A DNA stretch of 64,000 nucleotides from Phorcus lineatus (Eukaryota > Mollusca > Gastropoda > Trochida > Trochidae): contig OV121081.1 of NCBI GenBank assembly GCA_921293015.1, positions 4,588,001-4,652,000 on the forward strand. The letters are read 5' to 3'. Below, in pieces: positions 18,503 through 63,735 of this stretch. Numbering within the stretch: position 1 is the first letter of the stretch; every line of letters begins with the position of its first letter. The position numbers and the translations under genes were made by a program. The notes below the pieces were generated by a model. It had not been told where the DNA came from. It saw only the letters and a list, made by a program, of their open reading frames with translations, and did no database searches.

Positions 18503-18563
<61 letters not shown>

Positions 18564-21500: not shown

Positions 21501-23690
21501 TAGGGACTTGATCCTACAGCCTTACGTTATTCCACACGTCAACTTCCATGATGGTCTCTTACAGCAGTACAATGCTCGACCACATGTAGCACGTGTTTGT
21601 CAAGACTTTTTACATCGTAACAATGTCCAGACATTGCCATGGTCAGCCAGGTCACCAGATTTGTCTCCAATTGAGTATCTCTGGGACGAACTGGATCGAC
21701 GCGTGCGCAGTAGGAATCCACCACCCCAAACACTTCCAGGACTTCTTGCAGCACTTCAGCACGAATGGCAGAACATTCCACAGGCTGTGATTGATAACTT
21801 GATTGCATCCATTGGTCGTCGATGCCAAGCAATAATCAATGCCAATGGTGACCATACCCGATACTGACATATGTGCACCCCTGTGATGTTGAAACACTTG
21901 TGCACCTGTGCATTTCAAGATCATGCTTATTCTGAATAAAATTTACTGAACAAAGATCTTCAAACAGCGTTTTAATTTTCATTTCAATGTTTAACTTGAT
22001 TCTGTAGTCTTTATATTGAACTTTGAAAGTCAGTGTAAAAGTTTAGATTTGGAAGAAAAATTATACACTTAGAATCAACAATGTAAAATTAATTCTGACA
22101 TACATCAAAGAACCATGCTATAAAAAACTTTACTTGAGTCACTAAACAAGTCGGTATATAGTGTAATAAACATCAAACATATTATAAGAAATATATATGA
22201 CATCTTAGCCACTGAACAAATTATATACGATATACGCACTAAAAATTCTATAAATATTTTTGACTTAATTCAGTGAACAAGTTAGCATAAAATGTAATTA
22301 CGTGTTATCAGAACTTTGACTTACATGCAATATGCTGAACAAATTAATTTTTGAGTGAGTGAGTGTTTATTTGTAATCACGGCCACATGGCCTAAAGTAC
22401 AATAATCATGTATACATAAGGTCACAGCGCATGGACATTGACATGATTGCTTACATAGGTAAGTTACGTTTAAGATAAATTGCAAGATTTTTTAAGCATT
22501 CAACATTCTGTGAAGACATTAGCAAATTAAATTTTTCTCGCGTTGGATAGGTATGAAAATAGCTTGGTAACAACATTTTTCTACTTTCATTATGATATGG
22601 ACAGACTAACAAAAAGTGAAATTCGTCTTGGATAACGTCATAATTACATTTTGTACATTTCAATAAATCAATATTTACATTTGTATCGTATCGAACTTGC
22701 TGTATGTTAAGTTTATGGTTCATGCATCTAAATTTACACAGAGTTCTAAGTAAGTCTCTATCTGAAATAAGCCGTAATATGTGAAGTTCTGGTTCGAGAA
22801 TACTCTTGTAAGAGCAATAGTTATGCAAATATGATGATGAACATAATTTACTTTGCCATATTAGAAACTGAATATCTTTACATCGTTGTTTAAAACATTG
22901 CATGAAAAATGAGGTGTCGCCACAATCGTGGGAGATCCATACATATGAAAAACCAGTCTCCATTAACAACGTCCGAACATGTGACACCCAACTGATACCA
23001 CCATGGTCGTCATATGATTTAAGCATTAAAAAGCAGGCCTTTGGAACAAATTAATGTTTATTAATGAAACAATTTTACCTTAATCCAAAAAACAAATTAT
23101 TGAGTAATGATATTACCATCAACAATGGTGTAAGCAATTTGCTTGACTTCATGCAGCCAATGTTCACCAATACTCCCCGAAACGTCGATACATAGAAGGG
23201 TATCCATAGAAGACTCGGACCGAGGGGGAGGTTTCTCCACTTGATAAAGGAAGACATGTTACTCAATATATAATCATAAAGTTCTAGATGACATGTGCAG
23301 ACAAATTATTGTTTATTAAATGGCTGTGACACATCTATAAAGAGGTTTATAATGTTGTCATTTTTTCCTTAAAGGTTTTTCATACATCTCGCAAAACGGA
23401 TTGGTCATGATTAAACCGATGATTATTTTTTTCCAACTGGTTGTAACATACATTTGTATCTATAAAGAATTTTATAAAGTTGTAATTATTTCCATAAAGA
23501 TTTTAATACATCTCGCAAAACCAAATGTCTACATGATTTAAATCATGAAATTGCCGTCAACAGTTTACGAACAATCGTGTGTATGTAATGTGATTACCAT
23601 CCTTAAGCACCGCAGCCACACATCTCAGCAAGAGAAGGCTGACTGTTTCAAATATTGATCGAAGGAGACGTTTGGCGTCTTCAAACACTT
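412..23690 (-). CDS. Copy A: tandem paralogue of the vWA / MIB-HERC2 / WWE gene (both ends incomplete)
   Basis: Seven exons: 23598..23690, 23117..23239, 18601..18723, 18103..18177, 17246..17361, 16577..16669, 412..501. Phases agree throughout (238 codons in view). The first encodes a hydrophobic segment, RLLRSIFETVSLLLLRCVAA, absent from copy B only because B's homologue lies beyond 64000. It leads into the MIDAS exon (LLCIDVSGSIGEHW), then NVGIIAIGNDVRVVQ, DGLTCGGRSPIYTAL, RVIFITDGYATKEDID, IVWIPVGRPDW and the bridge exon EFLRSLANLGKGEIMEKENV. The remaining domains should lie left of base 1. The 5' start is not found: the frame needs one upstream base, and no in-frame ATG precedes the first exon. 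Two introns are swollen by transposons (16.1 and 4.4 kb against 1.6 and 1.9 kb in B). Coding sequence shows no break, so it is not a visible pseudogene. Confidence 0.82.
976..1032. repeat. Short inverted repeat
   Basis: ATCGAGATTCAAACTCT pairs with AGAGTTCGAATCTCGAT 23 bases further on. The right arm resembles a tRNA B box (GTTCGAATC), so this may be a scrap of a tRNA-derived SINE. Confidence 0.3.
1141..1860 (+). pseudogene. Non-LTR retrotransposon reverse-transcriptase relic
   Basis: Fragments in successive frames match the RT core: SSVDAIFALHSLISRTLNSN then RLYCAFVDFRIAFDSFD, the palm segment upstream of the catalytic FADD box. Then AKLWYKLAKLGFRGKLFLVI, and after a deletion KTKIIVFRKGGKVKS and TQLSDQG-like TSQLSDQGRKALFSIY from the region after the palm. 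Frameshifts and the missing FADD box make it dead. It resembles the LINE type whose 3' ends appear at 22.4 and 52.1 kb. Confidence 0.65.
2227..2248. repeat. 22-base G homopolymer
   Basis: Uninterrupted G run shortly after CTGTAGGGGTTATGGGGG, the same lead-in motif as the G run at 10946. Confidence 0.9.
2249..2949. other. No gene seen
   Basis: AT-rich sequence between the G tract and the SINE tail. An open frame at 2337..2543 has no recognisable motif and no homologue elsewhere in the window. Confidence 0.3.
2950..3052 (+). repeat. 3' end of a SINE with trinucleotide tail
   Basis: GTGCGCTATATAAATGGCCC followed by an imperfect (TTA)n run is the typical 3' terminus of a class of metazoan SINEs. 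The 5' tRNA-like head is not visible, so this is a truncated copy. Confidence 0.5.
3053..4500. other. No gene seen
   Basis: AT-rich intronic insertion sequence without exon-like or transposase-like frames. A more GC-rich patch starts near 4360 and leads into the CRE cluster. Confidence 0.3.
4527..4565. promoter_or_regulatory. Cluster of three CRE palindromes
   Basis: TGACGTCA occurs at 4527, 4542 and 4558, spaced 15 and 16 bases. This is the full CREB/ATF consensus. A GC-rich stretch lies just left (4360..4510). It may belong to the inserted element rather than the host gene. Confidence 0.45.
4831..4996. repeat. Inverted repeat at the left end of the large element
   Basis: GAGATAAATCCCTTCTGTT and, further in, TTTTTCACCCTTAAATTT recur as reverse complements at 4932..4995, forming a stem of roughly 65 bases with an irregular centre. 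Confidence 0.55.
5766..6900. other. No gene seen
   Basis: AT-rich interior of the large element, left of the satellite array. No long frame and no similarity to other parts of the window was noticed. Confidence 0.3.
7030..8215 (+). repeat. Satellite array, left arm, about 170-bp units
   Basis: Roughly seven units. Anchor motif TGCGCACCATTGGGTC recurs near 7207, 7378, 7537, 7708, 7883 and 8053, so the period is 160-175 bases. Each unit also holds CCCGTTTTGGGTCGAGGTC and GTAGCCAAACTTGCCAGATC. The first and last units are the most diverged. The short frames through it are repeats of one another, not genes. Confidence 0.9.
8309..8527 (+). repeat. Direct repeat, two 70-base copies
   Basis: TATAGGTCCAGATACAGGTG and the next 50 bases occur at 8312 and again at 8460 with a few changes, separated by about 78 bases of unrelated sequence. 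Confidence 0.7.
8530..10660. other. Spacer between inverted arrays, no gene seen
   Basis: AT-rich sequence. A 63-codon minus frame at 9367..9558 starts with ATG but shows no motif. Nothing supports a gene. Confidence 0.3.
10740..11718 (-). pseudogene. mariner-family transposase relic
   Basis: From ATG at 11718 it reads HRAVMKFLTKEGVMQHQHM then TVTKWSTEFKRGRSSLEDET and RSGRPAETI, the paired helix-turn-helix and GRP hook of mariner-type transposases. After a frame change come SECGMSHGSVCIIIHEHLTK, then ILHDNAPVHKSS around the second catalytic Asp, and PYSPDGSKSNFYLFRSLKLN near the third. Several frameshifts and stops separate these blocks, and a G/C homopolymer sits inside the usual HPPYSPDL motif. 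It is on the minus strand, inside the large element. Confidence 0.8.
10946..10972. repeat. 27-base G homopolymer inside the mariner relic
   Basis: Uninterrupted G run after CTGTAGGGGGTAT. It interrupts the transposase reading frame; on the minus strand it would encode polyproline. Confidence 0.9.
11720..13255. other. Spacer between inverted arrays, no gene seen
   Basis: A plus-strand frame at 11717..11959 and other short frames carry no motif. The first few hundred bases may be mariner 5' flank; no clear right terminal repeat was found. Confidence 0.3.
13260..14800 (-). repeat. Satellite array, right arm, inverted relative to the left
   Basis: The same 170-bp unit in reverse orientation: GACCTCGACCCAAAACGGG and ATGGTGCGCAATTTAGTTTT recur near 13553, 13622, 13793, 13967, 14137, 14310 and 14484. 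One unit is only about 68 bases long. Edge units are diverged. Together with 7030..8215 it forms a giant imperfect palindrome with a 5-kb spacer. Confidence 0.9.
14800..15935. other. Interior of the large element, no gene seen
   Basis: AT-rich. The 84-codon frame at 15716..15970 overlaps sequence shared with the short element at 29.6 kb and is broken there, so it is unlikely to be a gene. Confidence 0.3.
18507..18562. repeat. (AT)n microsatellite
   Basis: About 28 TA dinucleotides, 38 bases past the donor of the copy A exon at 18601 in the transcribed direction. Confidence 0.95.
18955..20770. other. Copy-A-specific intron sequence
   Basis: Copy B has only about 300 bases here (61860..62160). 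A minus frame of 88 codons at 18967..19233 starts with ATG and is Cys-rich near its end, but I find no supporting motif. Just upstream of that ATG is a GC-richer patch with GACCTCGGTCA and GGGGTCAAGGT. A single CRE (TGACGTCA) occurs near 19833. Confidence 0.3.
20773..21960 (+). mobile_element. Tc1-like DNA transposon copy
   Basis: A palindromic AGATCTT occurs at both edges (about 20784 and 21955), bracketing the transposase relic. The element is absent from the matching intron of copy B. Base composition is clearly richer in GC than the surroundings, as expected of a fairly recent arrival. Confidence 0.65.
20845..21867 (+). pseudogene. Tc1-like transposase, inactivated
   Basis: Frame 1 reads RNNAIGRLQAGATQRDVATQ then FGVSRQTISSLWTRF and DDRPRSGRPR: helix-turn-helix and GRPR hook. 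Near 21200 a frameshift leads to QWSQQRMRWAR, an in-frame TGA, VPFTDESRF (first catalytic Asp intact), VPFGVGSVMVWAGI, then LLQYNARPHVARV and WSARSPDLSPIEYLWDELDR, ending in TAC TGA at 21867. The second catalytic Asp (normally QQDNARPH) is Tyr. Frameshift, stop and lost catalytic residue make it inactive. Confidence 0.9.
22349..23043 (-). mobile_element. 5'-truncated LINE with 12-bp target-site duplication
   Basis: GAACAAATTAAT flanks the insert at 22337..22348 and 23044..23055. The insert ends in TGAGTGAGTGAGTG repeats on the plus strand (the element's 3' tail). The minus frame at 22451..23026 gives the C-terminus of ORF2: LCKFRCMNHKLNIQQVRY, then CTKCNYDVIQDEFHFLLVCP, the Cys-Cys-His-Cys zinc knuckle typical of these elements. 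The frame is open over 190 codons, so insertion is fairly recent. It sits in the first visible intron of copy A only. Confidence 0.85.
23598..23690 (-). CDS. Copy A most 5' visible exon, hydrophobic segment
   Basis: A 93-nt exon with acceptor GATTTGTAG and donor GTAATC. It encodes VFEDAKRLLRSIFETVSLLL then LRCVAAVLKD, an amphipathic-to-hydrophobic stretch just ahead of the vWA domain. The LLLL run could be a membrane anchor or simply a buried helix. Its donor phase completes a Val codon with the MIDAS exon at 23239. The corresponding exon of copy B would lie past the right edge. Confidence 0.6.
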
Positions 23691-33475: not shown

Positions 33476-33576
33476 ATAATTTTTGATAAAATTTCATTTG
33501 TTCTTGCAATATCTCTGCTCCTGTAATGATATCCCCATTATCTTTCAGCATTTTAGTTATAAGTTTACTTGTATAG

Positions 33577-34859: not shown

Positions 34860-35649
34860 AATATTTTCTGTGTTTTCGTCTATATGTATATCCTGGAGAC
34901 ATATGACAGAGTAGGTTTTTTTTTATCAATACTTCCTTACGTTTCTGTTTTTGTGCTAGGTCTCTACAGTTGGCTGAAACAATTTTGATTCTAGCATTCT
35001 CATAGTGTAAGTAAAGACAATATCAGTATGCACAAGACTTGAACTGATTTGTTTTTTTTTTCTGTTATGAGAATGTCATTGTTAAAGAGTTTAACATTGT
35101 ATGACATTGTTGTATTGTTTAGTGGGCCACACTTACACTTGTTTTGATAGTCTTAGCTGGCAGTGTCTAGAATCATCTATTCTAGAATGTTCTATCTATT
35201 TCTTGATTGCTTGAGTTGGACATTTCTGACTGGAGTTTATCGTGGATTTTTAAAGAACATTCTGGAAGGCTGGCATTAGAACTCTTACTCATCTTGCGTC
35301 TTACAATCAATTTTGCGATCTGTTATCTGCGCTTATTATCTGCCATGCCACTGTTTTTGGATACCTTTACAAGCCAGATTGATCTATCTCCTATCAAGAC
35401 CCACTGACTGTTTTCTACATTCATCAAATGTGTGATTCATAAGGACTGGTGAATATATTTATTTAGCTAATTCGTGTGACGCATTTTATATTGTATTATA
35501 ACTTGTATTAGCTTGATATTGTTCTCTTAAACACTTTGTTTATTATTTGATTGATTAAATTGTAAATAATATACAATTGTCTTGTTATGTTTTGCTGGTT
35601 TGACTGGGAACATTTTCTTATAACAAATAATTTCGTAACATTTCATATA

Positions 35650-47551: not shown

Positions 47552-48096
47552 TTTATTTTTGCAAAAATGAACATTCTTACACCTGTTATTTAGTCATGAT
47601 TTTCTTTTAAATCATTAAAAACATCGTTAAATTACACATCTTAATTAAAAACAACAACCCGTACGTCATCTTATTCAAAATTATTTACAAATTATCAGCT
47701 GCGTCTTTTTTAAAAGCTAAATCATAATTGCAACGATATGACACTTGTCATCCGAGGAAGGACTCTATAGAGTTCCACAAAAAACATGTTCTTCAAATAG
47801 GGGTTGATGATAGGAATGCGACATTGAAATGAATCCCTTCGCAGAAATACTGAAACGTTTGCATGCAAAATGTATATGGTCATATGGTGCGACTGGCAGT
47901 GACAGGAATGTATGCTGAGAATTTGACATGTAGAGTCATTGAAGAATATTTACACAAGATAGGATCGATCGGACTAGTTCGCTACAGCTGATCATTTTGA
48001 CAATCAATTGATCCGACATGAAGGAATGTTTATAAAACCCACGAAGTTCGGTCATCAATGGCTAGTTCACAGCTAATCATCTCGTCTCTGCTCATG
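47552..48096 (-). other. Probable 3' UTR of copy B with polyadenylation signal
   Basis: No coding signal follows the stop at 48097. Minus-strand AATAAA occurs at 47552..47557 in an AU-rich context, a plausible cleavage signal. The repeat unit that fills 43.2-47.47 kb ends just beyond it, so the gene's 3' boundary and the repeat's boundary nearly coincide. Confidence 0.35.
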
Positions 48097-48773
48097 TCAT
48101 TGACGACTGAAACAAAAGAAGAGAATGTTTCTCTTTGATATTCGTTTTGATCAGTTAAACTGAAAGGAAAATTATCGAATTATTATATTTTCGTCCAAAT
48201 GACGTCACCCTTTGCCTCATGAAGCATTGTTATGGCATTACAAGACAATGAAAGGTTATCTCAATACTCCATCATGTGATTGCCCTTGAACCATTGCTTT
48301 CTTCAATCTTTTTTTCTATAAAATAATAAAAACTAAAATTCGATATATCTTTCCTAATACTATATGTATTATTTGTATATATCATGGAAAAAAATGCTAT
48401 ACGTCAAGACTCCAAGATATATAAATGGAGGGGGTCTTTTCGACACGAGATGTCAAATTTATCTTACCCCCTTTAACGTTTAACGATATTTTCATAATTC
48501 AGGATGGGATAAATGTTTTATCCGTTAATGGAATTTTTACCTCATCATGTTGGTATTGTTACCTCCTTATCCTATCTATATGTCTTTATGTTCACTTATA
48601 ATAACCTTTACTGAAACGTTGCCCTCGTTACAATAAAGATACATAAATACATAAATACCTTGTCTTTCTTGTCATAGGGCAGTAAAATTGTTACCACAGC
48701 AGGACAAAGTTATTAAAAACAAGGTACCTGGCATGTATGGTTAACTTTGATCTCATTGCCCTTAAACTTACAA
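48097..48773 (-). CDS. Copy B C-terminal tail exons and stop
   Basis: Exon 48728..48773 (46 nt, acceptor TTTTCCAG, donor GTACCT) reads IVSLRAMRSKLTIHA. Exon 48097..48106 follows acceptor TTTGTTTCAG and adds two codons then TGA. Phases (1 in, 2 out, 2 in) agree. The tail is short and basic with no domain. The final exon is supported only by the acceptor and phase, so the true last exon could differ. Confidence 0.5.
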
Positions 48774-51700
48774 CTGGAAAATTCAACATTTAGAAAACAC
48801 AGGTACATACTTATTCGATCAACATCTGTTTTTGATCCACCTTGTAATTGTCTTTCATGAAACGGCTTTTGAATAATGACACGACATCTGTAAAATAAGA
48901 AATATCTAAACGTAAATAGATAAAGACCACCTCCTACGGCATTATGGCACATTAGAAGAATTAGTAGCATCACTTTGTAAAGCGTTAGCTAAAATTATAG
49001 GGAAATGGGGATAAACGTTCAAGAGGCCAAATTGTTTCTCTTTTTTTCTGTAATTCAAGCAAAAATGTTTAACTTTATATCAGAAGAAGGATTAAACATG
49101 CTTTAGAAGATATAGCAAAGCAGTCATCAATCTTAAGTACAATACAAACAAGGGTACTCCTGAAAATACTGGTTTAAGTCAAATCATTTGTTTATAAGAA
49201 AATAAATATCGTACATAAGGGTCTTATTACCTAATCTATAGAATCAGTGTCAGTTTTGAAGAAAACTACCATTGTTATAGATTTAATATAATCAATGTAA
49301 ACTTACGATTCAGTGCCTTTCTTCACCAAACAAGAGCGACCTCCCTTCATGTATTCCTCTTCCAGTTTCTTAGTGGCCTCTCTACTGTAGAGTCGCCACT
49401 GGCCCAAGCCGTCCTTCCACCGCCAGAATACGTGGGGAGTCTCCAGGGAAGGCAGCTCTTTCTCCTCTACAACAGAGTTTAACTAGCGCATAGAGAATTA
49501 TACATATTAGAGACTATATTGATTACCATTGGTTCAAACAAGCCTTACATCAATAACGTCAGGGTTTGAAATTGCGATTCAGATAACAGTTTGGTTACGT
49601 GCGTTCCTAAGTGGTTTAGTTCAAACATAGTGAGGTTCTGTATGGTTTGGATTAAGCATCGTATTGTCCTGTTTGATATTGTTCAAGCATTGTGCGGTCA
49701 TGTATGGTTTGGTTCAAATATCCTGCGGTCATGTATGGTTTAGTTCAAGCATCGTGTGGTCCTGTACGGTTTGGTTCAAGCATCGTGTGGTCCTGTACGG
49801 TTTGGTTCAAAAATCGTGCGGACATATATGGTTTGGTTTTAACATATCGTAGACCTGTATTGTTTTGTTCAAGCATCATGCATGGTTTGTTTCAAGCATC
49901 GTGTGGGCAATTCTCACAACTCAGCCAAAGGCATCGCAAGAAGAGTATACAGTAGAACACGGAAATAACGAACTCCATGGGACCAACGAATTTTGTTCAC
50001 TATATCCAGTGTTTGCTATCCGCGTTTGGCCACCATCTTGGATCATCTTCACGGGACTTAAAACATTGTGCGGTATATCCGATTGTTCGCTATATCCGAG
50101 TTCGTTATATCCGTGTTCTACTGTAATCTTTTACCGCTCCCAGGTCTCCTGATGGTGCAATCTAGTATTTTGGAAGGGTATATTTCTTTTAGAATGCCAC
50201 TTCTGACCTGTCATTGAATTTCGGGTCGTCATCTTTTATTTCACTAGGTAGTGTACATGTATGTTTGCAAACAACAATAGTTTACATATATATCAATTCC
50301 TTCTAAAAAATTAAACTTTCATGTCATTTACAATTTCCTCCTGTCAGTACATATGTACACTATTTGTATCAAATTAATCCCAGATGATTTGGATCTCCAT
50401 CGGAAAATTATCTATATGATATAAAAGAATATACATGCAAAACAAAAAACACCTAATCACTCATTGCTAACCTTCTTTGTTTTTAACATGCATACTGCAC
50501 ATTAAACATACAAAGGCTTCGTTAGGCCTTTGAATTATACTTAAGGTGTGTCCTGACATCTTGTCACTTTCTTGAGCCTATATACACTGGATTCTGGAAT
50601 AGACGTAACAATAACTTCCCGTTGACCTTCTGTGCACTCCTCAACGAGGTAGATGATGAGACATTAACACAGTACCTCATTGGCAGACCTGTTGATACAG
50701 TTCTGGACTAAGAACTTATGTGTGACTTTCAAAACAGGTGTGCAGCGTATGTCATGTCAACCATGGCAATATATAACAGAGAACTGTGCAGAAAGAGTTA
50801 TCACCCATGATGCAGTCCCTAAATCAAGTTACTCTTAAACAACAGCTAGAATGTGTACATACAGGAACTATCCTAACATCTCTTCTTAACATAAACACTT
50901 CTTCAAATTTCGTAATGTAAATGTCTCGAACTGTTCATTTCATGTATCCCATAATCTCCTTATGGAGGAAATAAACATAATGATGATGAATTTACCTTTC
51001 ACACCAGGTACAGATGATTGTCCCGAAGGAGGTTGTGTTGAAACTTTCTGGGGTGTTGGACTTTGGATTACTGGCTTATCCGCTTGACTGAAAGTATTTA
51101 AGCCGCGTTTAATTTGTATTGGTGATCAGTTTAGAAAAGCTGTACATGTTCACAACATCAAATGAGAATGTCAATAAAACATTTTTTAAAACTATCTCTT
51201 TGTTTAAGGTATGCGTGTGATTGAATGCATTATCGTTGAGCGAAAAAATATTTCCTAAACAAAATAAGTCTTAATTTTAAGTAGTGATTTAGAATGTTCG
51301 TAATCTTGATTTAAAAAAGGCATTTTGTGTATATTATGTCAAGTTTAGCTTTTTAAAAAATAAATGGTGATTATGAGACCAGACTTGTATAGTACTTACC
51401 AAATTTTAAGTTCCATCTTTCCGTCGCAGCCGTATTTACAGGGAGTGATTTCTCCATTTGACCAACGGACCTGATAATAATTTGAAAATCACTATGTAGT
51501 TGTCGTTTGATACAAATTGTAACTCTACATACACTCACAAAGAAAGTAAGAAAACTAGCCGATATCTCCATGAAGTAAGGTCGTCATTTGGAATGATAGG
51601 GTCTTTGGAAATAATTAAAAATTCATTGACGTCAACCATAAAAAGAAACAAATTGTAACCCTACATACACACTCAAAAAGAAAGGAAGAAAACTAGCCGA

Positions 51701-54700
51701 TATATCTATGAAGTTAAGTCGTCATGTGGAATCATACGGTCTTTGGAAAACAATTATTTAAAATGACTGAAAACGTCAACCATAAAAATAATCAATTATT
51801 ACCCTGACTCACTATAATCAGAGAGAAACTTGAACTGAGCCGAAGATAATTGTAAGTAGTCTTGAACAAAATATACAAATAAATACACTGTATAATCCCT
51901 ATTATCAATATATGCCTGATTCGCTCTTGCTTTCACACTAGCCTACAAAGACTTTTAGACAGTTAATTCGTAAACATACCATAAATAGACAAGTTATTTG
52001 CAATATTACCATTACTTAACATATCAATCAATCTTTATTTCCGACTGAAGAGGCCTCAGGCCTATGTACATATACAGAAGTAGTTGGGATTTACATGAGT
52101 TAATTCTTTGCACTTTAGTGATATGACATATGTTCTGTACTTAATTGCTGTAGATGTACATAGCCAGATTTTGTATTGTACATGTAATTTGATTTCTACT
52201 GTTCATTAGATTACAGAATTTTATAATACTTGGATGGACATAGTAGTACTGTTTAATATACTTACATCGTAATGCATTATATACTGGACAAATAAAAAGA
52301 AAATGGTGTTCGTCTTCTTTTTCATTTAAAGTGCAAAGTGTACATATTCGGTCTTCCTTTTTAACACCTCTATATTTACCAGTTTTGATTAATAAATCGT
52401 GTGAAGAGCATCGAAAGCGTGCCTAAATTTCTTTATATCAATACATGTCAAGTAGGTTTCTTTGAATAAGTCGTTATTAAATTGTGAATAGTAAAATATT
52501 TACTTGACAAATGATTTTTATCACACCATGTTTGAAGATAAATGTCTTTAAGTCGAACAGTTAGGGAATTAATGAATAATGATTGATCTGACATTCTACA
52601 TACAGATCAGTCCAAATGTTTCCAAAGCCAATAGAAAATAAAAAGTTTCCAACCTGGGATACCCAATTTCTTTGTCCATTCTTGTTATACAAGAACATCA
52701 TATTATAACATTTTTTTGGTATTCTATTAGGAGACAAAGCTAAAAGTTTCAGCCAATATTTGACTGCATTTATAGAGGTGTAAATATTAATTGGGAACCT
52801 TCCTAGTTCTCTATAAACCATAACACTAGGTGTACTTAATTTTACTCCTAGATATCTTTTACATAGATGTAATAGATGAACCTTTTCAATTGTATCTATA
52901 TTTAGTAAACCCCATATTTCCAACCCATACAATAATTTTAATTATTTTACTATCAAAGATTTAAAAAAAGAATTTGTACGAGAGATCACCTTAGATATGG
53001 GTTTGTTAACAAATAGAAATAAACACTTTTTTTCTAGCTTGGGTTGCTGCCTGGTTGAAAGTTCCAAGAAAGGTTTTTGCAGAATTATATACCCAAATAT
53101 TTATAAAGTGAAGTTGTCTCCAGTCGCTCTTCTTTGAAATACCTATTTCCGAACATAAATGCCTTTAAACGCCACAACACAATCTTACTATCCCTTCTTG
53201 CCCCTCACTGTAACATAACCAAACACCTGAAAAAATTTGCAACCACTAAAATGCACCAGGTTTGTATGCACGTGGATTCAAATCAATTGTATAACATCTA
53301 TTGCATATCATTAAATGTAAACTCAAGTATTAAACTGTCGTCTATGTATTCATGATTTTAATTGTTTCCAATAAAGAGAATAGGATGTAGAACATCACCT
53401 TGACCATTCCATCTTCTCGTTTCCTCACAACTACACCGTAGTTTCCTTCTCCTCCATCTAAGTTTCCGTATGACCAATCAGAACCTGCCACGCAATAAGA
53501 GATCTTATCAATGCTATAATGATAACTTGTGGGTGTCTTATTTAAAAGATTTGAATCTTAGAGCCTCTTTCATTATAATGTGGGTGACATAAAGCAAAAG
53601 GTCATTTTCGTATTGCAATGTGTTGCATACGTAAAATCACTTTTTGCCCAAATGACAATGATATGATGGAAAGGAGTTTGATTGTAGAAATGAACGCATC
53701 TAACTACGCAAAACTATCGTCAGTCTCGAAATGTCCAACTTAATCCTTGCTGACTTGATACCAGCGCCCTTCTGGTGATATTTAGTTATCTTTTAGTAAT
53801 CTCCAGTTTCCTCCCTTACCGTGGCCAATCGTAGACGCCGTGTCATTTGCGATATAATAAAAATGGCCGCGCCCATTGAACGTGACCTGTATGGTCAGAT
53901 AACAAGAAGTTTGGCATTGAGAACCTTTAAAACAAGAATATTGACTTTATTAATGCAATGAGGGACGAAAAAGGTGCTTTTGTTGTTATTAGGACCGATT
54001 GTGGGAAATAATTAACGTACATGTATGAATGCGCCCTATATTCTTCAAATGGAAAGTATGAAGGAGGTCCTTATATATCATCATGGATCTAACATGTATA
54101 TTGTTATTTAAGTTTTAAAAGTAAAGTTTTAAAGTGTTGAGTTTTAAAGTAACTGCACAACTATCCGGTAAAATCACTATTATCAGGGTAGGTCTAATTA
54201 TAATTCAATTGAATAATTAATACCTTTGAACGAAACAAAGTAATATTATCATTAAAAGTAATTTAATGAATTTTGGTTGTTATTAAGATTCTAGTTTATG
54301 CATTTGCAAACTAGAACAAAAATTCTGATACAAAAGTACATTGTCTTAGTTTTACCGGGCATTCATGGACACTAGCTTGGACACTATGTCAAAAAATTTG
54401 TATGTTTAAAAAAATTACCATAAATCTCTTGATAACATTCAAGGTAATTTATTTCAGAATAATGTGAACATTTTATTCAACTGTGTTCTATCTCTATCAT
54501 GAAATAATATTTTTGCAAATATTCTAAACCATGTTTTATCCTCTTTATATTTGGCGGCATGGTTAATCTTGTTATTCGGGTCTTATTTATGTCATATATG
54601 GAATGTTACATTCCCAAATGTGAAATATGAAATATGAACTGTGAAAATACCACTGAAGACTTCATATCAGTGAACATGGAAAATAATAACACTTAATATT

Positions 54701-57700
54701 ACAAACTTTGCACTATTTTAAAATTTATATTGACAACATGCTATTTAAAGGGGACACATTGTCATACCTGTATTTTGACTACAAGTAGTTTTTTGAAAGA
54801 AACAGTTACATTTTTAGTGTTATGACATCGAGGTATGTTCAAATTTAATCGGTTGATTTTTATGAAACATATACTCAATGTTTCGGTTCAACAGGTATTC
54901 AATACAGTTTATGCAAGCACAAATGACAAAAACAATTGTACGATGAAAGGAAGTAAACTCCTTGCGGTCCTAATGTACCGAGTCATTTCTACAAATCATG
55001 GTCTATTTTCTATCTCGAGTTTGATAATTTTATCGAAGCATTTAAGATAACATTCTTTGCCAGCCCCTGTCCGCAGTTTGGTTATTGCACAATACTTGCG
55101 CTTATTGACTATAAACATGAATGAATTTGAATTTATCGTTTTTGCTTTAAAGGCGGCACGTTCTCTTTACAAATCTTGCAGTCGAAGGACCGCCATGGTT
55201 TTTCGAGTCCCGGGATGTAGCTTTTGCAAGGAGCTTTCTGATTGGATTTATTCCTATCTAATCCTTTGCAATAAGCTAGAAAGCAAGCACAGAAAAGTCT
55301 TAGGTCGGCAGAAAGGGTTGAGTTTGACAGTTCGAGATGAAATGAAAATTTCCATAAACAGTATAGATCTTAATGGCAACACGAACAACTACGATCGTTA
55401 TAAGAACATTTTTTATTTCTCAATCTCAATCTTCATGAAATAAATGAAATCGTAAATGATATCTTAAAGTTTACTCGTGCTGTTACCTCGTTGAACCTTG
55501 ACACCTATCGCTATGAGTTCATCCTTCTTTACTTCTCTCGGTTCATCAATAATTTTCAAGTCGTATTTCCCGTCAGCTCCATAACGGTAGCGACATACTC
55601 TATCGTTCAAATCCCAATTAACCCACACATACTCTGAAATGGAACAGTTTTTTATATTAAAGATACAGCTACATTGTTTTCATAGTAACGACACTTAAAG
55701 GCACTGGCACAAAGCCGTATTTCATAAACACAACGAATGCACGGTTACTGCATACACTTCTTGATAATTACAAACTATACAGCGCCTTTACGAATATTTA
55801 CATTATTAAAAAACCACCATCGTTCATGAGACGACTTTTGAGTACATCATAATCAAGTTCATTTATTTCTTTAATTAGATTTAATGTCATCGATATTTTA
55901 TTAATCACGCATCCAATTCAAACGTAAAAAAGCGATGGACAAATATTATATTCTTTTTGGAATTTAGTTTGAGCCAAGTTTTAAGTGAGGCAGGGGTCTT
56001 TTTAGTCTGTTGATGTTTGTGGACTTAGAAATAAACAGCACTTACCTGCCCCAAATGTGAGGAAAAGTGGGCCAAAGAACAAACCCAAGTACAAGTATAA
56101 GATCAAGAAGCGACCTACTGTCATCCTTGGAATGGTTAATGATTGTCCCTGGCCCCCCTGAGTCCTGTTCCTCGAAACTCCAATCTGAACCCCGGACAAC
56201 CCGCGTGCCAATGGGTGGAAGAGTTGACACAACGTTGATGTTCGTATAGTCATCCGGGTACTTGTCTGGGTCTACTTTTCCCTTTCTTTCGAGTTTTGCC
56301 CTAACCGCTTCCACAACAACTTTCTGGGTGAAATGATTTAACATCTTTGTATCTTAAAAATTTTATAAGCATCAACCAAGTCAATTTAGGCCTTAACAAG
56401 CTGCAAATATTTACATAAGAACATATTTTCGGGACACCTGAATCTTGATTGTAAACATACACGGCATTTCCGAGTATTTACTTACTCCCACATACTCAGA
56501 ACCGTCGTGTCTTTCCACATTATAGTTATTATCACTAATTTTCCTTGAATAATTTCCAATGAAATTTAATCATGCAAAGCGTGTACCTGTTCATCGTCGG
56601 TCATGTCGCCTATGAAGGCACTGGTCACATCCTGGATCATATCCACAACATCCTGTCCTCTTCTCTTATCGTTTTTCACACAAAAGTAAATTCGCCCAAT
56701 GCTTTCCTAAAATGTTGAGATATGTTGAATAAGCACTGATGGCCTTTCTTAATGCATCCTTTAGTATTCAACTATGAATTTAACCACTGAATACGAAAGG
56801 ATCAATCAACAAGACTTTCAGATGATCCTCACTCAATATTGATGGGTTTTCTTTGACTACGACGGAGCATTGAGTGAAATTTGATTTGAGCACCCAATCT
56901 ATAAAACCACAATAACCCAGCACCTTACGTGGTTTCCTGCACTGATACACTATTATGGAGTGTATTCATATGGAATACACTCCATCCCTGAGTGTGTTAA
57001 ATAAGCACATGGTAAACATACAACTGCATATCGAATGTATGTTCACTTACCACTGAATCGTAGTGCAAATATGTAATTTCGGTTAAGTTTGTACTTCAGC
57101 AAAACTTCTTGAACTTATTTTGAGATCGTCTGGTCTCTCGTGCAAAAATTAGAAGTTTGGCATGTTGAAGTAGGCAGAAGGGGTTATTTTCGAAATTTCG
57201 ATTTTGTTAGTTTTTGTAATAAAATGTTCCATATCGACTCTCTGGGAAGAAAATTAAGCGCAATCGCATTAACTTAATGCAAAGGAACAAACATGACTAA
57301 TTTTCAAAGTAGTTCATAGGATTATAAAAGATTTTGTAGAGAAAAAAACCCTTTGTGTTTTAGAAATATTGACCCCCTGGTCACTTCAATGACCTGCCGA
57401 AACTGTTTCGGTAAATTGTGTGGCATGGTAATTATTTGCCTGAAAGAAGGATGGTTCTGCACATCTGTATTGAAAATTCAACATCATACGTTTCTTTTTC
57501 CCAATGCTATGATACCTCAAAGGCATCCCAAATTACAATATATTCGAACTAGTATACCCAGTTATGTGAAAAAACTTTTGATTGCAGCTGTATTTTCAAA
57601 TGTTTTCAGTGCACAGTACACACTTATATAAACAAGGAAACTTGTAGATGCACTGACATTTACAGATGGCAGAACATCAATGCAAACAATAACGTCAATA

Positions 57701-60700
57701 AATTATCATCGCCTATTAAATAGGGGTCAAAATTCATGTTGACAATTTCAGAACATAGCAATGTCAAATGTTATCAATAAATGCCAGAGTTGAAGGCGCT
57801 GCAAGTAATGATGAGATTCACGGAGGAAATCAAATCCCTCACCTGCATCCTGTAATAACTGGACAGCGAAGATACATTCTCCTTTTCCATGATTTCACCC
57901 TTTCCAAGTTTCGCAAGACTTCTCAGAAATCCCTTTTTGATAAAATAATCACATTGGCATGTTCATGTTGTACGTAAGTAGTCATAAACATAGTCTCGCA
58001 AAACATAAGAGAGCGCACAAGTAGATCGTTTATAAACATGCAAATTTCATTTTGAAATAAGGAAATAGTGTGAAATTAACGAAAAAAGGTGTCAGATTTC
58101 ACACGATGACTTTCTATGGTCAACCATAACTTAAATTTGTTGGTTAATATTCTTTAGTTGTTGTACTGTCAAGACATTCACAAGGCGAAAACGGTATCTC
58201 GGGGATCTTAATCAAATATGAGCTCCCAACATGACTTTCGGGTTACTTCCCAAAACACCCACAAAGGTAAAACACCCACATCCCAGAACACCCACAGTCA
58301 TATTTCATGGTTGATTGAGTTTACCTACTTGGATAATGGAATGACCCATTAGTTGTAACTCCTAATGAGACTTGTTTGAAAAAAGAATAACAAGAAACAT
58401 ATTACTATATACAATACAAATTATGAACAAATACAAATAACAAAAATGTTGAAAAATCAAAACACAGTTGCACAGAGCAGTTGTTTAGTTTTAAGAATGA
58501 TAACATTCAAAGGTCTGTTATAAACACCTTTAAAACAAAACAATATATTTTCTTCATTCAAATATAATTTTCCTTTCAATGCCGAGATGGTTTCAATTGA
58601 ATCATTGCATAAAGGATATGTCTGGGATTCTACATATCCTATCTTGAATAAAAGATTATTTGAAGTCAACATATAGTGTACTGTTTTGAATTGAAAACAT
58701 CGGAATTCACTACTTTGTGTACACCTTTTGCCATGTGATTAAATTTTTTCAATTCAGTTTCTGTATATTGTTAAATTAATGCCAATGTTCTTCCCGTTCA
58801 TCAAATGTTTTTACTGTTGTAGCTTTGGGTTTAATAAATTCAAATAGAAGAACATTGCTGATCGTTTATTTTGGACAAAATTAAAGGCAGGCTTGGGCTT
58901 AAGAGACATTTTGTCATGAAATTTGCAGCTGCGCAGAAAAGATGATACTGATCGGCAATATGTTGATTCATAATAGATAAAACATCAAATAGATTTTTCT
59001 TGAGGTAAGATGTTATGTTGACTTGATTACCAATTGTACTAAATGTATATACTTGCTGAAAATAATATATTTTATATTTTAGATATGACAAATATGATGT
59101 GTTTGAAACAATTATATTTTATGTTAACAATATTAGAGTTATGATGTGTAAACATGGAATAAACATATAATTTTTCATTCATGTGTTCTTTTACATATGA
59201 ATTGGAATTGTCCATTATCAAATGATAGGTGAGTAGCTGTGCACTGGCCCATGTCAAACTGTGGGTGTTTTACCACTGTGGGTATTTTGGGAAGATACCG
59301 ACGTACGAAATGCATCTCTTTCTTTGATAACAGATTCCATTCCGTTGAAAATAGACATCACTTTAGAAGTTGGGTTGTCATTAAGTGATATACAGTAAGT
59401 TTGACACAAAATTTATTCACATGCCAACGCTTCTACATATACTAGGTTCCAATTGTATCAGAAAAACACATGTTGGTACACTGTAAAATATAAGAATGTG
59501 ATACAATATATTGATAACATACCAAATCAGGTCGTCCTACAGGTATCCATACTATTGGACTTGGAACCAGTTCGTTTTCACAAAACTGCTTTATCAAATC
59601 AATGATGTAAATCTTTGCCTGCATACAAATAAACGCATTGGTTATTTTCGAATAACATTGGATAAGAAAAATATTTCCTAGACGTGAAAGCAAATATATA
59701 TGCCTCTCTCATTGATATTAATATTTGAAACAAATACATGTAGATGAAAGATCAATTGTTGATATAGATATTGATGAAATGAATAATTGACTAATTTATT
59801 AGATGGGCTGTAAGGGATTTAACAATTAACAATTATGGAAAGTAAGACAGTTTCTGTGAATTGTTGTAGAATAAAGGTGGGATACATACATTTTGAAATA
59901 CCCCAGTCGTTATTACAATTTAAGTTTAACAGAAGAAGTGAATCGTTTTCAATACGTGCATTCATCAATTGTTATAGAATCACTTATAAAGAAATTGATA
60001 CTCTCCAAAAATATTGCCATATATCATTTACAAAACTCTCACTCTTGCTGGGGGTAATATCATAATGTTATCAGTCATATTACAGACTTCCTTGCCAGAT
60101 AAGAAAACCAATTTATGGATGGCAACTTCTCAAATGACAGACTTCTTTGGCGCTTTGAGCACGCCATTAGTGGTGTCGAGTCAAGCGCAATGTTAGTATT
60201 ATTATTATTTTTATTATCATGTTTACGTCGTAATCTGCAGTTGTAGAATCAGGCCCAGTGTCGATATCTTCCTTTGTGGCATAACCATCCGTTATGAAGA
60301 TGACTCGGGGTGGAATTCGGTGAAGCTTGGACATAGCGCTGCTTGCTTGAAAGAAGGAATACATAGAGGATATATAATAAGTATACATGACATACCATGT
60401 TCCCGAGGTCGAAGTCGAGATAATTAAAAAGAACAATAAAAACTACTTCAAAGTTAGGCGGATTATCCGCTGCCAGCGCATTTGAAACGTCAAGGTAACC
60501 GCAAACTTTGCCGTAAAAATTAACAAGTGATATTTTACCCTAAGACATCGTAGCTAAAACATGAATCCTGAAATGAAAACGGTCGAAGGTAATAAAAAAA
60601 ATAGTTTCGTCACTATTATCGTCAAACTCAATCGGAAGTTGGTTATTGCTTATACACGTAACACTTGTCTAAATGAAAAAGTCTACATTATGCCGAGTAA

Positions 60701-63337
60701 CTTTCATTTATGATTAGCGCAGTTAGTCCGCAATATCATGAATTTCTGGAAATAAGCGTGCGGTAAAGTTTGAGTTGGAATTTTTATCGTTGCTAAATGT
60801 TACTGGTTCAGAGGCTAAGACAAAATTTGCAGTACTCCGCTGTCCAATTCCTCATACGGTGAGAAATTATAAAAATAATTGCTTACCAGTTTGTGTTTTT
60901 GCAATAGAAAATGCACGATGTCAAAGCTACATTAAAACTCTCCTGTGAATCCGCTAGCAAGCTCGCCTGGTTTGCAGTGCTATCAACTAGACGTTTCGGC
61001 TCCATGATCATTTCAAGATTCGTTGTTGCTGCATACTATTTCTTTTCATGTTAAAAACAGCGTGTTAAATTGAAGAATCCTTGTTGATACTTACTTTTTC
61101 CACCTAGCGCAGCCACACATACACAGAGAGCGGTGTATATCGGGCTCCGTCCTCCACAGGTGAGACCATCTAAACATCATAAAGCTTGAGCATATCTGAA
61201 TGAAAAACTTACCACCTACAATTTGATAACCATACTCTTTTGAATGTTTTCATGTCAACACAACTCAATTCCTTTATTCATATGTATTTACTTAGTATCT
61301 CCATACAAATCATTATGTAAATCGTTTAAAACATTATATTGTATAAAATCAATCATGCAACTTATTAATATACAATATCCATAAAATGTTCAGACACAGA
61401 GACACTATTTATGCAGGAAACAATATCAAAGGAAAAAGTGTGATATAAGTAAAATGTATAACAGAAATATCAAAATGTCGTCGTTTGTCTGTTCCCTTCT
61501 TTATTTCTTCTTATATATATTTTCAACTTCAAATATTTGATACCAATTGCATCTAAAACTTGGCTGTAGTCGTTAGTCGGATACTGCACTACTCTGACAT
61601 CATTTCCCATTGCGATAACACCAACATTTTCCTCTAGAGAATGTTCTTCAGCAACCTGTTGAATACCTGTTGAACAAGAAATGGAAAATATAACCAAAAT
61701 GAATTTGGTAAATAATTTCTTCGAAAAGGAGATTGAACAGAACAGAAGGATGCAAATTTGACATAATTCAGAGTTCCTCACACTGACAATTACCTTGAAA
61801 ATACTAATGAATATAATGACCTAAATAGATCGTTCCATTTGAGTCAGCCTAAATAGGTATTGTACACGTTAACCATATTAGGTACCAAAGACTCGGTTAT
61901 GATAATTGAAAGTTCCATGGTTTAAGACAAATAATCATAAAATACACTTACCATAAACAGTACAAAACGCAATTTGACCAAGTCATGAATGAGTTATATT
62001 TCATAAAAGAAGACACGAGGGTGATATTCTATTCATCATCCGAAATCATTTTTCATTTCGATTTAGTGAAACATATAAATTTCCGAACTCGATAGACTCA
62101 CAGTGCGGTGATGTAAAACAATTGTTCACAATTGTTCAGGACATTCTTCAAAATCTAGTGTAAAACGATATCTCCTGTGGAACTAAGTTTTGAATGACAA
62201 ATAATACACTTAGGATCATCAATGCAAAATCAATTCTGACATACGTCCATGAAGAACCATACTATAAGAAACTTTGGCCTAAGAGTAATAGAGGGGTCCG
62301 CATGACGGGATCTCTAAAAGAACTGTAAAATGCAACCTAGTCCTTCAAAAAAGCTTAAATGAGATTTTTCTTATAGCATTATTTTTCTATACAATAATAT
62401 ATCCCTTATAGGCAACTGCAACCAAATTCTTAAAACCATCAAAATACACGTTTTCATAGGACAGAAGAGACTTTATGTAATTTGAGGTAATTTGGTTGCA
62501 GAGAGAAACTAAACGATCATATCGCAAATGTTTGAACTTTACCTGGCTGTTTATTTACGTTTTAATGAAATATCGTGTCCCGCTTCGCTATCGTTTCTGA
62601 CAAAGTTGATGGAAAGTTTCCACTAAACAAGTTAAATCTAACATTTTTTATAGCTTAGCATGTCTTGGTAAGTATTTATGACATTCTTTGACCAAATTGT
62701 TCCTAAATTGCCATTTGTTTTTACAACGTGGTCCCGAGACGAATTCGAATTGTTGTCAAATCTGAACACAGTTCTCATTGGCTGTAACAGATGCCTCTGA
62801 TTGCAAACTAATTTTGACAGAAAATAAACAATAAGTAAGTTTAATGACTAGTTTCTATCTTAAACCGATCAAAATCAATAACGAATAAGTAAAAAGGAAC
62901 CTTAAATTAAAATTGTATTGACAATGTTTGTTGCTGTATTAGCCAATGGAAAGACGTGTTACGTAGCGCATGGCATTACGTCACTCATTGTGTCAGAGGG
63001 AACATGTCAAACCGAAACTGTTGATTAGATCGTTTTCTCGTCAAATTAGGTAAATTTGAAGTGTCCTGCAACCAAATTGATCTGATAACCTTTCAAAATA
63101 GAATTTTATTACTGCAACCAAACTCGAAAATTACTCGATTTCATGATGATTTTCCATTTTGCAACCAAACTCTAGGATTCCTTATAATATAAGATGTTAC
63201 AGTCAACTATTTCAGCTTTCAGAATATCTTCATCATCTGGACTATTTTCAAGGACTAGGTTGCATGTCATAGACGTTTTAGATACCCCGTCATTCGGACT
63301 CCTCAAGTACTCTTAGGCAGAAACTTTACTCAAGTCA

Positions 63338-63393
<56 letters not shown>

Positions 63394-63735
63394 ACTAAAC
63401 ATCAACCATGTTTTAAGAAATATATATGACATCTTAGCTGCTGAACAAATTATATACAATATACGTCTATAAGTATTTTAGACTTAATTCAGTGAACAAG
63501 TAAGCTTAGAATGTACTTACATGCTATGAGAACTTTGACTTAATGTATAAGGTGTTTGTCAACGCGGAAACAATTTTACCTTAATCAAATTACAATTAAC
63601 TAATGATATTACCATCAACAATGGTGAAAGCAAATTGCTTGACTTCATGCAGCCAATGTTCCCCAATACTCCCCGAAACGTCGATACATAGAAGGGTATC
63701 CATAGAAGACTCGGACCGAGGGGGAGGTTTCTCCA
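48097..63735 (-). CDS. Copy B: vWA / MIB-HERC2 x2 / WWE multidomain gene (5' end off window)
   Basis: Sixteen exons read right to left: 63613..63735, 61544..61666, 61095..61169, 60227..60345, 59523..59618, 57843..57932, 56587..56706, 56119..56323, 55487..55633, 53399..53484, 51400..51470, 50996..51087, 49307..49466, 48811..48887, 48728..48773, 48097..48106. All have AG acceptors and GT donors; phases agree at every junction and the total leaves one open frame of 546 residues ending in TGA. Order: vWA (residues about 10-180), bridge (180-249), MIB/HERC2 1 (about 285-355), MIB/HERC2 2 (about 362-418), linker (419-450), WWE (about 455-530), short tail. The frame enters needing one upstream base, so at least one 5' exon lies past 64000. 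MIB/HERC2 domains occur in Mind-bomb and HERC2 ligases and WWE in PAR-binding proteins, but no RING, HECT or PARP domain is seen: an adaptor role is inferred. The last two exons are the least certain. Confidence 0.85.
48811..49466 (-). CDS. Copy B WWE domain, two exons
   Basis: Exon 49307..49466 encodes PHVFWRWKDGLGQWRLYSRE followed by ATKKLEEEYMKGG. This fits the WWE pattern: two spaced aromatic positions (WRW, QW), the YS turn, then an amphipathic LE..Y..G helix. Exon 48811..48887 supplies CRVIIQKPFHERQLQGG and SKTDVDRI, in the place where WWE domains have their last strands and basic end. WWE domains in RNF146, Deltex and HUWE1 bind ADP-ribose polymers or help ubiquitin transfer; this function is family knowledge, not seen here. 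Neighbouring phases (1 in, 2, 1 out) are consistent. Confidence 0.8.
49611..49908 (+). repeat. 31-bp minisatellite
   Basis: About nine degenerate copies of GGTTTGGTTCAAGCATCGTG followed by TGGTCCTGTAC. The two central copies (49760..49821) are identical. Located in the intron between the linker exon and the WWE exon of copy B. The open frames across it are repeats, not genes. Confidence 0.9.
49950..50123. mobile_element. pogo/Tigger-type MITE
   Basis: 26-bp terminal inverted repeats starting CAGTAGAACACGGAAATAAC with one mismatch between ends, flanked by TA on both sides (49948..49949, 50124..50125). Length 174. The CAGT-start, TA target and ATAACGAAC motif are typical of pogo-family MITEs. 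It directly abuts the minisatellite. Confidence 0.85.
50996..51087 (-). CDS. Copy B Pro/Ser/Gln-rich linker exon
   Basis: A 92-nt exon with acceptor ACTTTCAG and donor GTAAAT. It encodes CQADKPVIQSPTPQKVSTQP followed by PSGQSSVPGVK: a low-complexity, probably disordered tether between the second MIB/HERC2 domain and the WWE domain. Phase 2 in and phase 1 out match both neighbours exactly, which is the main support since the sequence itself has no recognisable fold. Confidence 0.7.
51400..53484 (-). CDS. Copy B second MIB/HERC2 domain, two exons
   Basis: Exon 53399..53484 gives GSDWSYGNLDGGEGNYGVVV then RKREDGMVK. Exon 51400..51470 gives VRWSNGEITPCKYGCDGKME then LKI. The two exons join at phase 0 and follow the preceding domain with only a short connector (VKKDELIAIGVKVQR), so the two MIB/HERC2 domains are adjacent as in Mind-bomb proteins. 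The intron between them (51471..53398) contains a degraded LINE. The WSNG, KYG and DGKMEL segments match the family pattern. Confidence 0.85.
52020..53170 (-). mobile_element. Degenerate LINE 3' part in the intron between MIB/HERC2-2 exons
   Basis: From right to left: LWRLKAFMFGNRYFKEERLE then YKYLGI; frame 52561..52932 with MYGLEIWGLLNIDTIEKVHL and LCKRYLGVKLSTPSVMVYRE; then RICTLCTLNEKEDEHHFLFI with the zinc knuckle. It ends in ACTGAAGAGGCCTCAGGCCT-type 3' UTR at about 52040. Same general type as the copy at 22.35 kb but older, with frameshifts. Confidence 0.75.
53485..55486. other. Intron of copy B, no gene recognised
   Basis: A plus frame of 128 codons at 55057..55443 begins without ATG; inner Met codons exist but no motif is recognisable. 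The opposite strand is also open for about 70 codons (PWRSFDCKICKENVPPL). A TTTAAAGGGGACACATTGTC motif at about 54746 resembles the start of a transposon. I cannot name the element. Confidence 0.3.
55487..56323 (-). CDS. Copy B first MIB/HERC2 domain, two exons
   Basis: Exon 56119..56323 ends with PPIGTRVVRGSDWSFEEQDS and GGPGTIINHSKDD. Exon 55487..55633 continues as YVWVNWDLNDRVCRYRYGAD and GKYDLKI. This is the MIB/HERC2 pattern: G-x-RVVRG-x-DW near the start, then W-x-NG-like segment, YRYG and DGKYDL. The domain is known from Mind-bomb ligases, where it binds substrate tails, and from HERC2. A stronger-looking GTAAGT donor at about 56045 would keep the frame open 24 more codons, but joining it to the next exon gives a stop. 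The GTAGGT donor at 56118 restores the full domain, so I chose it. The upstream half of the exon (EAVRAKLERKGKVDPDKYPD) is charged linker. Confidence 0.88.
56587..57932 (-). CDS. Copy B bridge exons between vWA and MIB/HERC2
   Basis: Exons 57843..57932 (30 codons, GFLRSLAKLGKGEIMEKENV then a Ser/Tyr-rich end) and 56587..56706 (40 codons, ESIGRIYFCVKNDKRRG then AFIGDMTDDEQ) are both phase 0 at each end. Copy A holds a matching first exon at 412..501 with only a few changed residues. The segment probably finishes the vWA fold with its last strands and helices, but I do not recognise a separate domain. Donors are GTGAGG and GTACAC, acceptors AAAAAG and TTTTAG. Confidence 0.8.
57010..57625. other. 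600-base segment present in copy B intron, absent in copy A
   Basis: Copy A runs from AAACACATGGTAAA (about 160) to GAAACATTGTACTTGTAGAT with only 50 bases between. Copy B has about 620. A plus frame at 57353..57631 (MTCRNCFGKLCGMVIICLK) has no ATG at its start and no recognised motif. Confidence 0.4.
58246..59294. mobile_element. TIR element of about 1.05 kb in copy B intron
   Basis: Left end CTTCCCAAAACACCCACAAA; right end reversed CTTCCCAAAATACCCACAGT; both continue with GGTAAAACACCCACA. Copy A reads across this point without it (CAACATGACATACGG). The interior is AT-rich and holds a LINE fragment, so this is a non-autonomous element. Confidence 0.65.
58442..58760 (-). pseudogene. L1-like ORF2 C-terminal scrap
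   Basis: Minus frame reads HYMLTSNNLLFKIGYVESQT then YPLCNDSIETISAL, the zinc-knuckle region of L1/Tx1-type ORF2 (compare RCSLCECENETIEHL at 42.6 kb), with the second half lost. Confidence 0.55.
59523..63735 (-). CDS. Copy B vWA domain, five exons
   Basis: Exons 63613..63735, 61544..61666, 61095..61169, 60227..60345 and 59523..59618 encode a von Willebrand A fold. The first exon carries LLCIDVSGSIGEHW, the hydrophobic strand plus the DxSxS metal-ion-dependent adhesion site. The second gives the next helix and strand (NVGVIAMGNDVRVVQ). The third has DGLTCGGRSPIYTAL, in the place of the MIDAS threonine loop. The fourth has RVIFITDGYATKEDID, the classic strand ending in TDG. The fifth has IVWIPVGRPD. 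Introns 1-3 are phase 1, introns 4-5 phase 0. Metal-coordinating Asp, Ser and Asp are present, so the site looks functional. There is no signal peptide in view, so location inside or outside the cell is undecided. Confidence 0.85.
62276..63318. mobile_element. Long-TIR element of 1.04 kb with 9-bp target duplication (MULE-like)
   Basis: AGAAACTTT occurs immediately outside both ends (62267..62275 and 63319..63327). The left end (G)GCCTAAGAGTAATAGAGGGG and the reversed right end GCCTAAGAGTACTTGAGGAG continue similar for about 70 bases (CATGACGGGATCTC, TGCAACCTAGTCCTT). Interior repeats TTGCAACCAAA several times and has no transposase. Nine-base duplications with long inverted repeats fit Mutator-like MITEs. 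Copy A has the empty site at about 22130. Confidence 0.8.
63339..63385. repeat. (AT)n microsatellite
   Basis: About 23 TA units in the first visible intron of copy B. The corresponding place in copy A reads GGTATATAGTGTAATAAAC, with only a trace of the repeat. Confidence 0.95.

Follow-up and report, generated by a model that had tools for sequence, protein, structure and literature searches.

What can a protein do that joins a vWA domain, two MIB/HERC2 domains, and a WWE domain and carries no visible enzyme? The question is raised by a gene, here called A, on the minus strand of a 64,000-nucleotide stretch of the Phorcus lineatus genome (the window; contig OV121081.1, hereafter C1, positions 4,588,001 to 4,652,000). 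The answer that we prefer, with somewhat less than even confidence, is that A is a member of an expanded mollusc family and specifies a duplicating intracellular multidomain adaptor whose WWE pocket is altered.

That the vWA-MIB-MIB-WWE architecture belongs to one gene is nearly certain. The joined exons of A give 558 codons, stop-free and with all exons in phase, and in this reading MIB_HERC2 (89.1 bits, over two stretches), VWA_2 (52.1 bits), VWA (37.4 bits), and WWE (28.9 bits) all exceed their curated Pfam cutoffs; on single exons, WWE exceeds its cutoff and MIB_HERC2 and VWA fall below theirs. VWA_2, MIB_HERC2, and WWE also pass in P16, a paralogue on the same contig, as does WWE in a second paralogue, P28. 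A preliminary description of this DNA had placed a vWA domain with a metal ion-dependent adhesion site (MIDAS), tandem MIB/HERC2 domains, and a WWE in a single gene chain, which is borne out by Pfam, by the intron phases, and by collinearity. It had also seen no catalytic domain, and none was found in the parts of A, P16, and P28 scanned with Pfam: no further domain rises above the cutoff in any of the three, and the 558 amino acids (aa) of A and five upstream open frames contain no detectable enzyme domain and no match to a ZZ finger, ankyrin repeats, RING, or HECT. The family protein is thus without a visible enzyme, i.e., apparently nonenzymatic. A hidden catalytic exon was also considered; when open frames from around A were compared with P16, P28, and the neighboring gene N, no further collinear conserved segment emerged at expectation values (E) up to 0.002, with a few noncollinear matches at A 70302, 57678, and 52326 set aside.

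When the 958-Mb genome was searched with a 297-aa query made of joined exon pieces of A (E up to 10), 132 places matched, 119 of them on C1, and the other 13 matched the MIB part only. Chaining of the 119 matches, together with 12 further WWE or MIB matches whose query ranges were assigned by hand, yields 33 units, all on C1 (4.5 to 5.2, 16.1, 18.6 to 18.8, 28.0, and 32.6 Mb), of which 30 have any MIB, 25 have vWA and MIB, and 16 have vWA, MIB, and WWE; because the search scores best candidates only, these counts are lower bounds and the gene number is approximate. Chaining presupposes an order, and order was hence tested separately on the 119 C1 matches. All 80 pairs of neighboring exon matches that lie no more than 6 kb apart share a strand and follow the expected order, whereas 1,000 label shuffles yielded 39.8 such pairs on average and never more than 51, indicating that the order did not arise by chance. 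Within 12 kb, 83 pairs are ordered, 5 are out of order, and 5 are on opposite strands; within 20 kb, the numbers are 85, 11, and 9.

Gene models of the paralogues were obtained by a purpose-written spliced alignment of the A chain. The whole exon chain is placed in P16 (C1:16088360-16101860), 11.4 Mb from A, where 14 of 14 intron phases and 13 of 14 intron positions are retained, the latter to the residue (hand count from lengths). P28 (C1:27961062-27968206) has the part of the chain that begins with the second vWA exon and ends with the WWE, plus one small extra piece, and the chain in N (C1:4670499-4663251) is partial. Copy B (C1:4611237-4576116) has the complete chain, E1 through tail, with 528 codons stop-free over 16 aligned pieces. 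About 33 kb from B, copy C (C1:4554066-4544491) runs from MIB to WWE, has two exons with scores equal to those of B, and looks like a decayed recent duplicate.

The ratio of nonsynonymous (dN) to synonymous (dS) divergence between A and B is 0.53 overall, with values of 0.32 for the vWA, 1.24 for MIB domain 1, and 0.47 for the WWE; the value for MIB domain 1 comes from a single pair with some 29 changes, and diversifying selection is not claimed. Between A and P16, identity is 49%, dN is 0.45, and dS is saturated, which argues for long constraint. Tandem spread, decayed-looking copies, and long constraint would fit a birth-and-death family.

The WWE pocket and the putative vWA metal site

The adenine of poly-ADP-ribose (PAR) units is bonded by a buried glutamine, Q153 in RNF146 and Q668 in ZAP, and the ZAP mutants Q668A and Q668R show no PAR binding (available sections of PMC8853533); this glutamine is highly conserved and forms a dual hydrogen bond across all structures of another study (PMC11269756, available sections). 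HMMER alignments of the P28 WWE to DTX1 (E = 0.0016) and ZAP (E = 0.36), both weak matches, place a glutamate of P28 under the glutamine without a gap, and the pocket residue of the other copies was counted from the same strand start. None of the 16 ungapped family WWEs has glutamine: 15 have glutamate (P16, P28, L011, L047, L048, L062, L063, and L073 to L080) and one has alanine (L081). Ordinary WWEs of the same genome, outside C1, have glutamine in all eight cases read (L050, L051, L052, L053, L054, L055, L057, and L059). These controls derive from 18 WWE matches outside C1, of which 11 were fetched and 8 were readable, L056, L060, and L061 being dropped for want of an alignment above threshold. 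Moreover, an arginine eight residues before the pocket place occurs in 16 of 16 ungapped family WWEs and in 0 of 8 ordinary ones, which, with the frequency of glutamate, indicates that glutamate is conserved rather than glutamine merely lost. By eye, a tryptophan pair and a C-terminal arginine persist in many family WWEs.

This survey covered 21 of the 22 known WWE places on C1 (18614567 was left out), two of which, L049 and L082, were unreadable. Most second WWE exons came to light through family queries, which themselves carry glutamate; a DTX1 query, which carries glutamine, picked the same exon for L011, L047, and the P16 duplicate and not for others. The proposal in the preliminary description that the WWE reads ADP-ribose polymers is not supported, given the contrast between 16 of 16 family members and 8 of 8 ordinary WWEs, A itself being ambiguous. 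With its altered pocket, the family protein probably links or senses something other than PAR.

The MIDAS motif DxSxS is present in 13 of the 14 first exons read: those of A, B, P16, and N have it, as do 9 of the 10 that were additionally fetched, L087 being the exception. The aspartate of the third loop is kept in A, B, P16, P28, and N, and the second loop has threonine in P28 and serine instead in A, B, P16, and N. The family vWA is predicted to bind metal.

The N-terminal domain and the exon map

Gene A extends past the end of the window, where a 5' exon and an N-terminal domain, both conserved, lie upstream of E1. The domain is a 165-aa open stretch (window-coordinate 68498-68004), and a genome search with it (E up to 10) finds six places, namely, A, B (two entries), P16 16081943, 5194112, and N 4673643, each of which sits 5' of a family unit on the same strand; the domain is collinear in four units besides A. 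Genome-wide matches are weak for 5194112 and N (E = 1.2 and 5.7), and in a small search 5194112 matches the domain of A and of P16 with E values of 1.9e-4 and 8e-6. The domains of A and N align with a score of 71; 500 shuffles averaged 29.7 and did not exceed 53. The corresponding stretch of B contains 5 stops, and this copy may be without the domain. No Pfam model exceeds its cutoff for the N-terminal domain (the best, Pro_sub2, reaches 22.0 versus 25 bits in one paralogue), and in searches of solved structures, A alone found no match and the alignment found none below E = 0.18. In gene N (L069; C1:4673142 downwards, minus strand), a long acidic, Asp/Glu-rich open frame lies between the N-terminal domain and the vWA.

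Exon X4 (64190-64089) is in phase with E1, and a small search found its counterpart in P16 at 16087429 (E = 0.002). Joining X1 to X2, or X3 to X4, in phase would take further small exons, and there are probably exons between the N-terminal domain and X4.

Inside the window, splice sites and phases define 15 exons of A, from 63735-63613 down to 48106-48030 (Table 1). The preliminary description had listed sixteen phase-consistent exons from 48097; the phase-consistent chain stands, the count is lower by one, and the end lies 67 bases beyond, at a stop codon that ends at 48030 and is common to A, P16, B, and C. The acceptor of E10 (53484) was set by eye, its AG and phase being confirmed afterwards, and E14 was placed by likeness to other copies.

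Table 1. Exons of gene A and the part of copy B in the window (window coordinates)
Feature	Position	Strand	Content	Basis
E1	63613..63735	-	vWA first strand with MIDAS DVSGS	Acceptor/donor and phase; matched in P16, N, B, and 10 further fetched exons
E2	61544..61666	-	vWA	Splice/phase, paralogue comparison
E3	61095..61169	-	vWA, second metal loop GGRSPI, Ser replacing Thr	Splice/phase, paralogue comparison
E4	60227..60345	-	vWA, third metal motif FITDG	Splice/phase, paralogue comparison
E5	59505..59618	-	vWA	Splice/phase, paralogue comparison
E6	57843..57932	-	vWA C-terminal helix, assigned by eye	Splice/phase, paralogue comparison
E7	56587..56706	-	vWA-MIB linker, kept in P16	Splice/phase, paralogue comparison
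E8	56119..56323	-	Conserved stretch; MIB/HERC2 domain 1 (first half)	Pfam, splice/phase, paralogue comparison
E9	55487..55633	-	MIB/HERC2 domain 1 (second half), domain 2 (start)	Pfam, splice/phase, paralogue comparison
E10	53399..53484	-	MIB/HERC2 domain 2	Pfam, paralogue comparison, by-eye acceptor
E11	51400..51470	-	End of MIB/HERC2 domain 2	Splice/phase, paralogue comparison
E12	50996..51087	-	Low-complexity linker; least certain exon	Phase consistency only; weak likeness in P16
E13	49307..49466	-	WWE first part	Pfam, splice/phase, paralogue comparison
E14	48811..48887	-	WWE second part with altered pocket position	Likeness to other copies; missed by open-frame comparison with paralogues
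E15	48030..48106	-	Conserved C-terminal tail and stop	Paralogue comparison
Copy B	16559..23237	-	Five vWA exons; next piece 412-501; remainder at C1:4587839-4576116, left of window	

The intron preceding the WWE exon of A contains a 31-base tandem repeat (49598-49881), with similar units at C1:4578030-4578295 beside the WWE of B. Also within the span of A, the fragment at 52144-52422 (minus strand) has a subthreshold zf-RVT match and a likeness near P28; it and further fragments at 22451-23050, 32855-33493, and 34503-34922 (all minus strand) and at 41482-42926 (plus strand) look like reverse transcriptase and endonuclease of the long interspersed nuclear element (LINE) type. Two open frames on the plus strand inside the span of copy B (20858-21867) resemble a Tc1-like transposase. 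Elsewhere in the window, a 172-base tandem repeat forms two arrays (7072-8122 and 13550-14637), the consensus units of which are, by eye, seemingly mutual reverse complements. Outside C1, contig C12 of the genome carries two arrays, each with eight hemocyanin units (16 matches), whose counterparts among solved structures are hemocyanins of the mollusc type; they are the mark of a mollusc and probably of a gastropod.

A proposed adaptor and the alternatives

With binding modules throughout and no enzyme detected, an adaptor is the simplest mechanism and, on the sequences, the likeliest role. The protein would consist of the unclassified N-terminal domain, a variable low-complexity stretch, the MIDAS vWA, two MIB/HERC2 domains, a linker, the WWE, and a short conserved tail. 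Inside the cell, the vWA would grip a partner by way of a divalent metal, a peptide from a substrate or from a partner ligase would be held by the MIB domains, and the WWE would serve either as a protein contact or as a reader of some ligand that is not ordinary PAR; the set would diversify as copies are gained and lost. Location, partners, and ligand are what we infer here.

Several observations weigh against this reading. The WWE match of A is weak, and A, B, and C carry a one-residue insertion at the pocket place, where the residue is ambiguous (glutamate in each when the hydrophobic residue before it sets the register; histidine, glutamine, and histidine, respectively, when the strand start does). 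Full chains were read in A, B, and P16 only: E1 and the tail were not found in P28, and in N none of the last four exons was found and the E5 piece seems spurious. Eight of the 33 units show vWA alone, MIB alone, or neither, copy C has no vWA match and, as aligned, a stop at the start of the second part of the WWE, and some family units may be decaying. Finally, the open-frame comparison missed the short exons E12 and E14, so a further short or diverged exon could have escaped it.

Among the alternatives, it is possible, if unlikely, that the family proteins are pseudoligase decoys, whose RING-less MIB domains would capture substrates in competition with Mind bomb or HERC/HECTD-type ligases, blocking ubiquitination instead of promoting it. 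The MIB pair is retained and aligns to MIB1, and no ligase domain was detected; however, a conserved vWA and WWE would be superfluous in a simple decoy, and sequence cannot tell a decoy from an adaptor. We doubt more strongly that the adaptor reads PAR through its WWE: the domain passes its Pfam cutoff in A, P16, and P28, and the tryptophan pair and C-terminal arginine remain in many copies, but the adenine-binding glutamine is absent from every ungapped member and present in every ordinary WWE read, and its replacement in ZAP by alanine or arginine left no PAR binding (PMC8853533, available sections).

Slightly less probable still is a switch of ligand, in which the conserved glutamate makes the pocket favor another base, e.g., guanine, so that not ADP-ribose but some other nucleotide is sensed by the family. 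The frequencies of glutamate (15/16) and of the arginine eight residues before it (16/16, as opposed to 0/8 controls) point to selection, and glutamate or aspartate can pair with guanine; on the other side, the arginine may neutralize the glutamate via a salt bridge, and A, B, and C have the insertion noted above. We attach similarly little credence to an extension of this idea, a class of intracellular ligand sensors in which one conserved residue would retune the WWE from adenine to another base and the ligand, through the attached metal-dependent vWA and MIB domains, would switch what reaches the ubiquitin machinery. That the vWA and MIB/WWE exons form separate adjoining genes is very improbable, since the roughly 16 kb between the fifth and sixth pieces of B and the lack of a vWA match in C are outweighed by the collinearity of all 80 neighboring pairs and by the retention of linking exons E6 and E7, with their phases, in P16, making separate transcripts unlikely.

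The wider interest is that WWE and MIB/HERC2 modules occur in a large, apparently nonenzymatic family, whose WWEs carry a natural replacement at the residue whose mutation ended PAR binding in ZAP (PMC8853533, available sections), raising the testable question of what a Glu-type WWE binds. Their tandem expansion makes these genes plausible candidates for fast-evolving intracellular defense or stress adaptors in molluscs.

Comparison with known systems

A literature search covering titles and the starts of abstracts, with proteome databases outside its scope, returned no paper on MIB_HERC2 combined with WWE and VWA; the newness of the architecture holds as far as literature searches reach and is not established beyond them. 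A vWA in an ADP-ribosylation setting is known from PARP4 (vault PARP; available sections of PMC4245714), unlike which the family has no VIT, BRCT, or PARP match in our Pfam scans. Against solved sequences, the family vWA finds weak matches (E = 0.003 to 1.7), three of the four being PSMD4/Rpn10 (the best partial, E = 0.003 over 58 residues) and one named only as a VWFA domain-containing protein. The P16 vWA matches the bacterial model NF010238 with an E of 8e-7, yet its 28.4 bits are far below the curated cutoff of 432 bits.

The WWE is shared with Deltex, RNF146, and ZAP/PARP13, and DTX1 and, weakly, ZAP are among the five solved matches of the P28 WWE; the family differs in having no match to a ligase, ADP-ribosyltransferase, or zinc finger domain and in the replacement of the adenine-binding glutamine. 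HECTD1 and HERC2 share the MIB/HERC2 domain, which aligns to the HECTD1 structures 2dk3 and 3dkm, but no HECT match is seen in A or in its five upstream frames. The Mind bomb E3 ligases (MIB1 and MIB2) consist of two MIB/HERC2 domains, a ZZ finger, ankyrin repeats, and C-terminal RINGs. The family has the same tandem MIB/HERC2 pair, both domains of which align to the MIB1 structure 4xi6, and in place of the ZZ, ankyrin, and RING domains, for which it gives no Pfam match, it has a vWA and a WWE.

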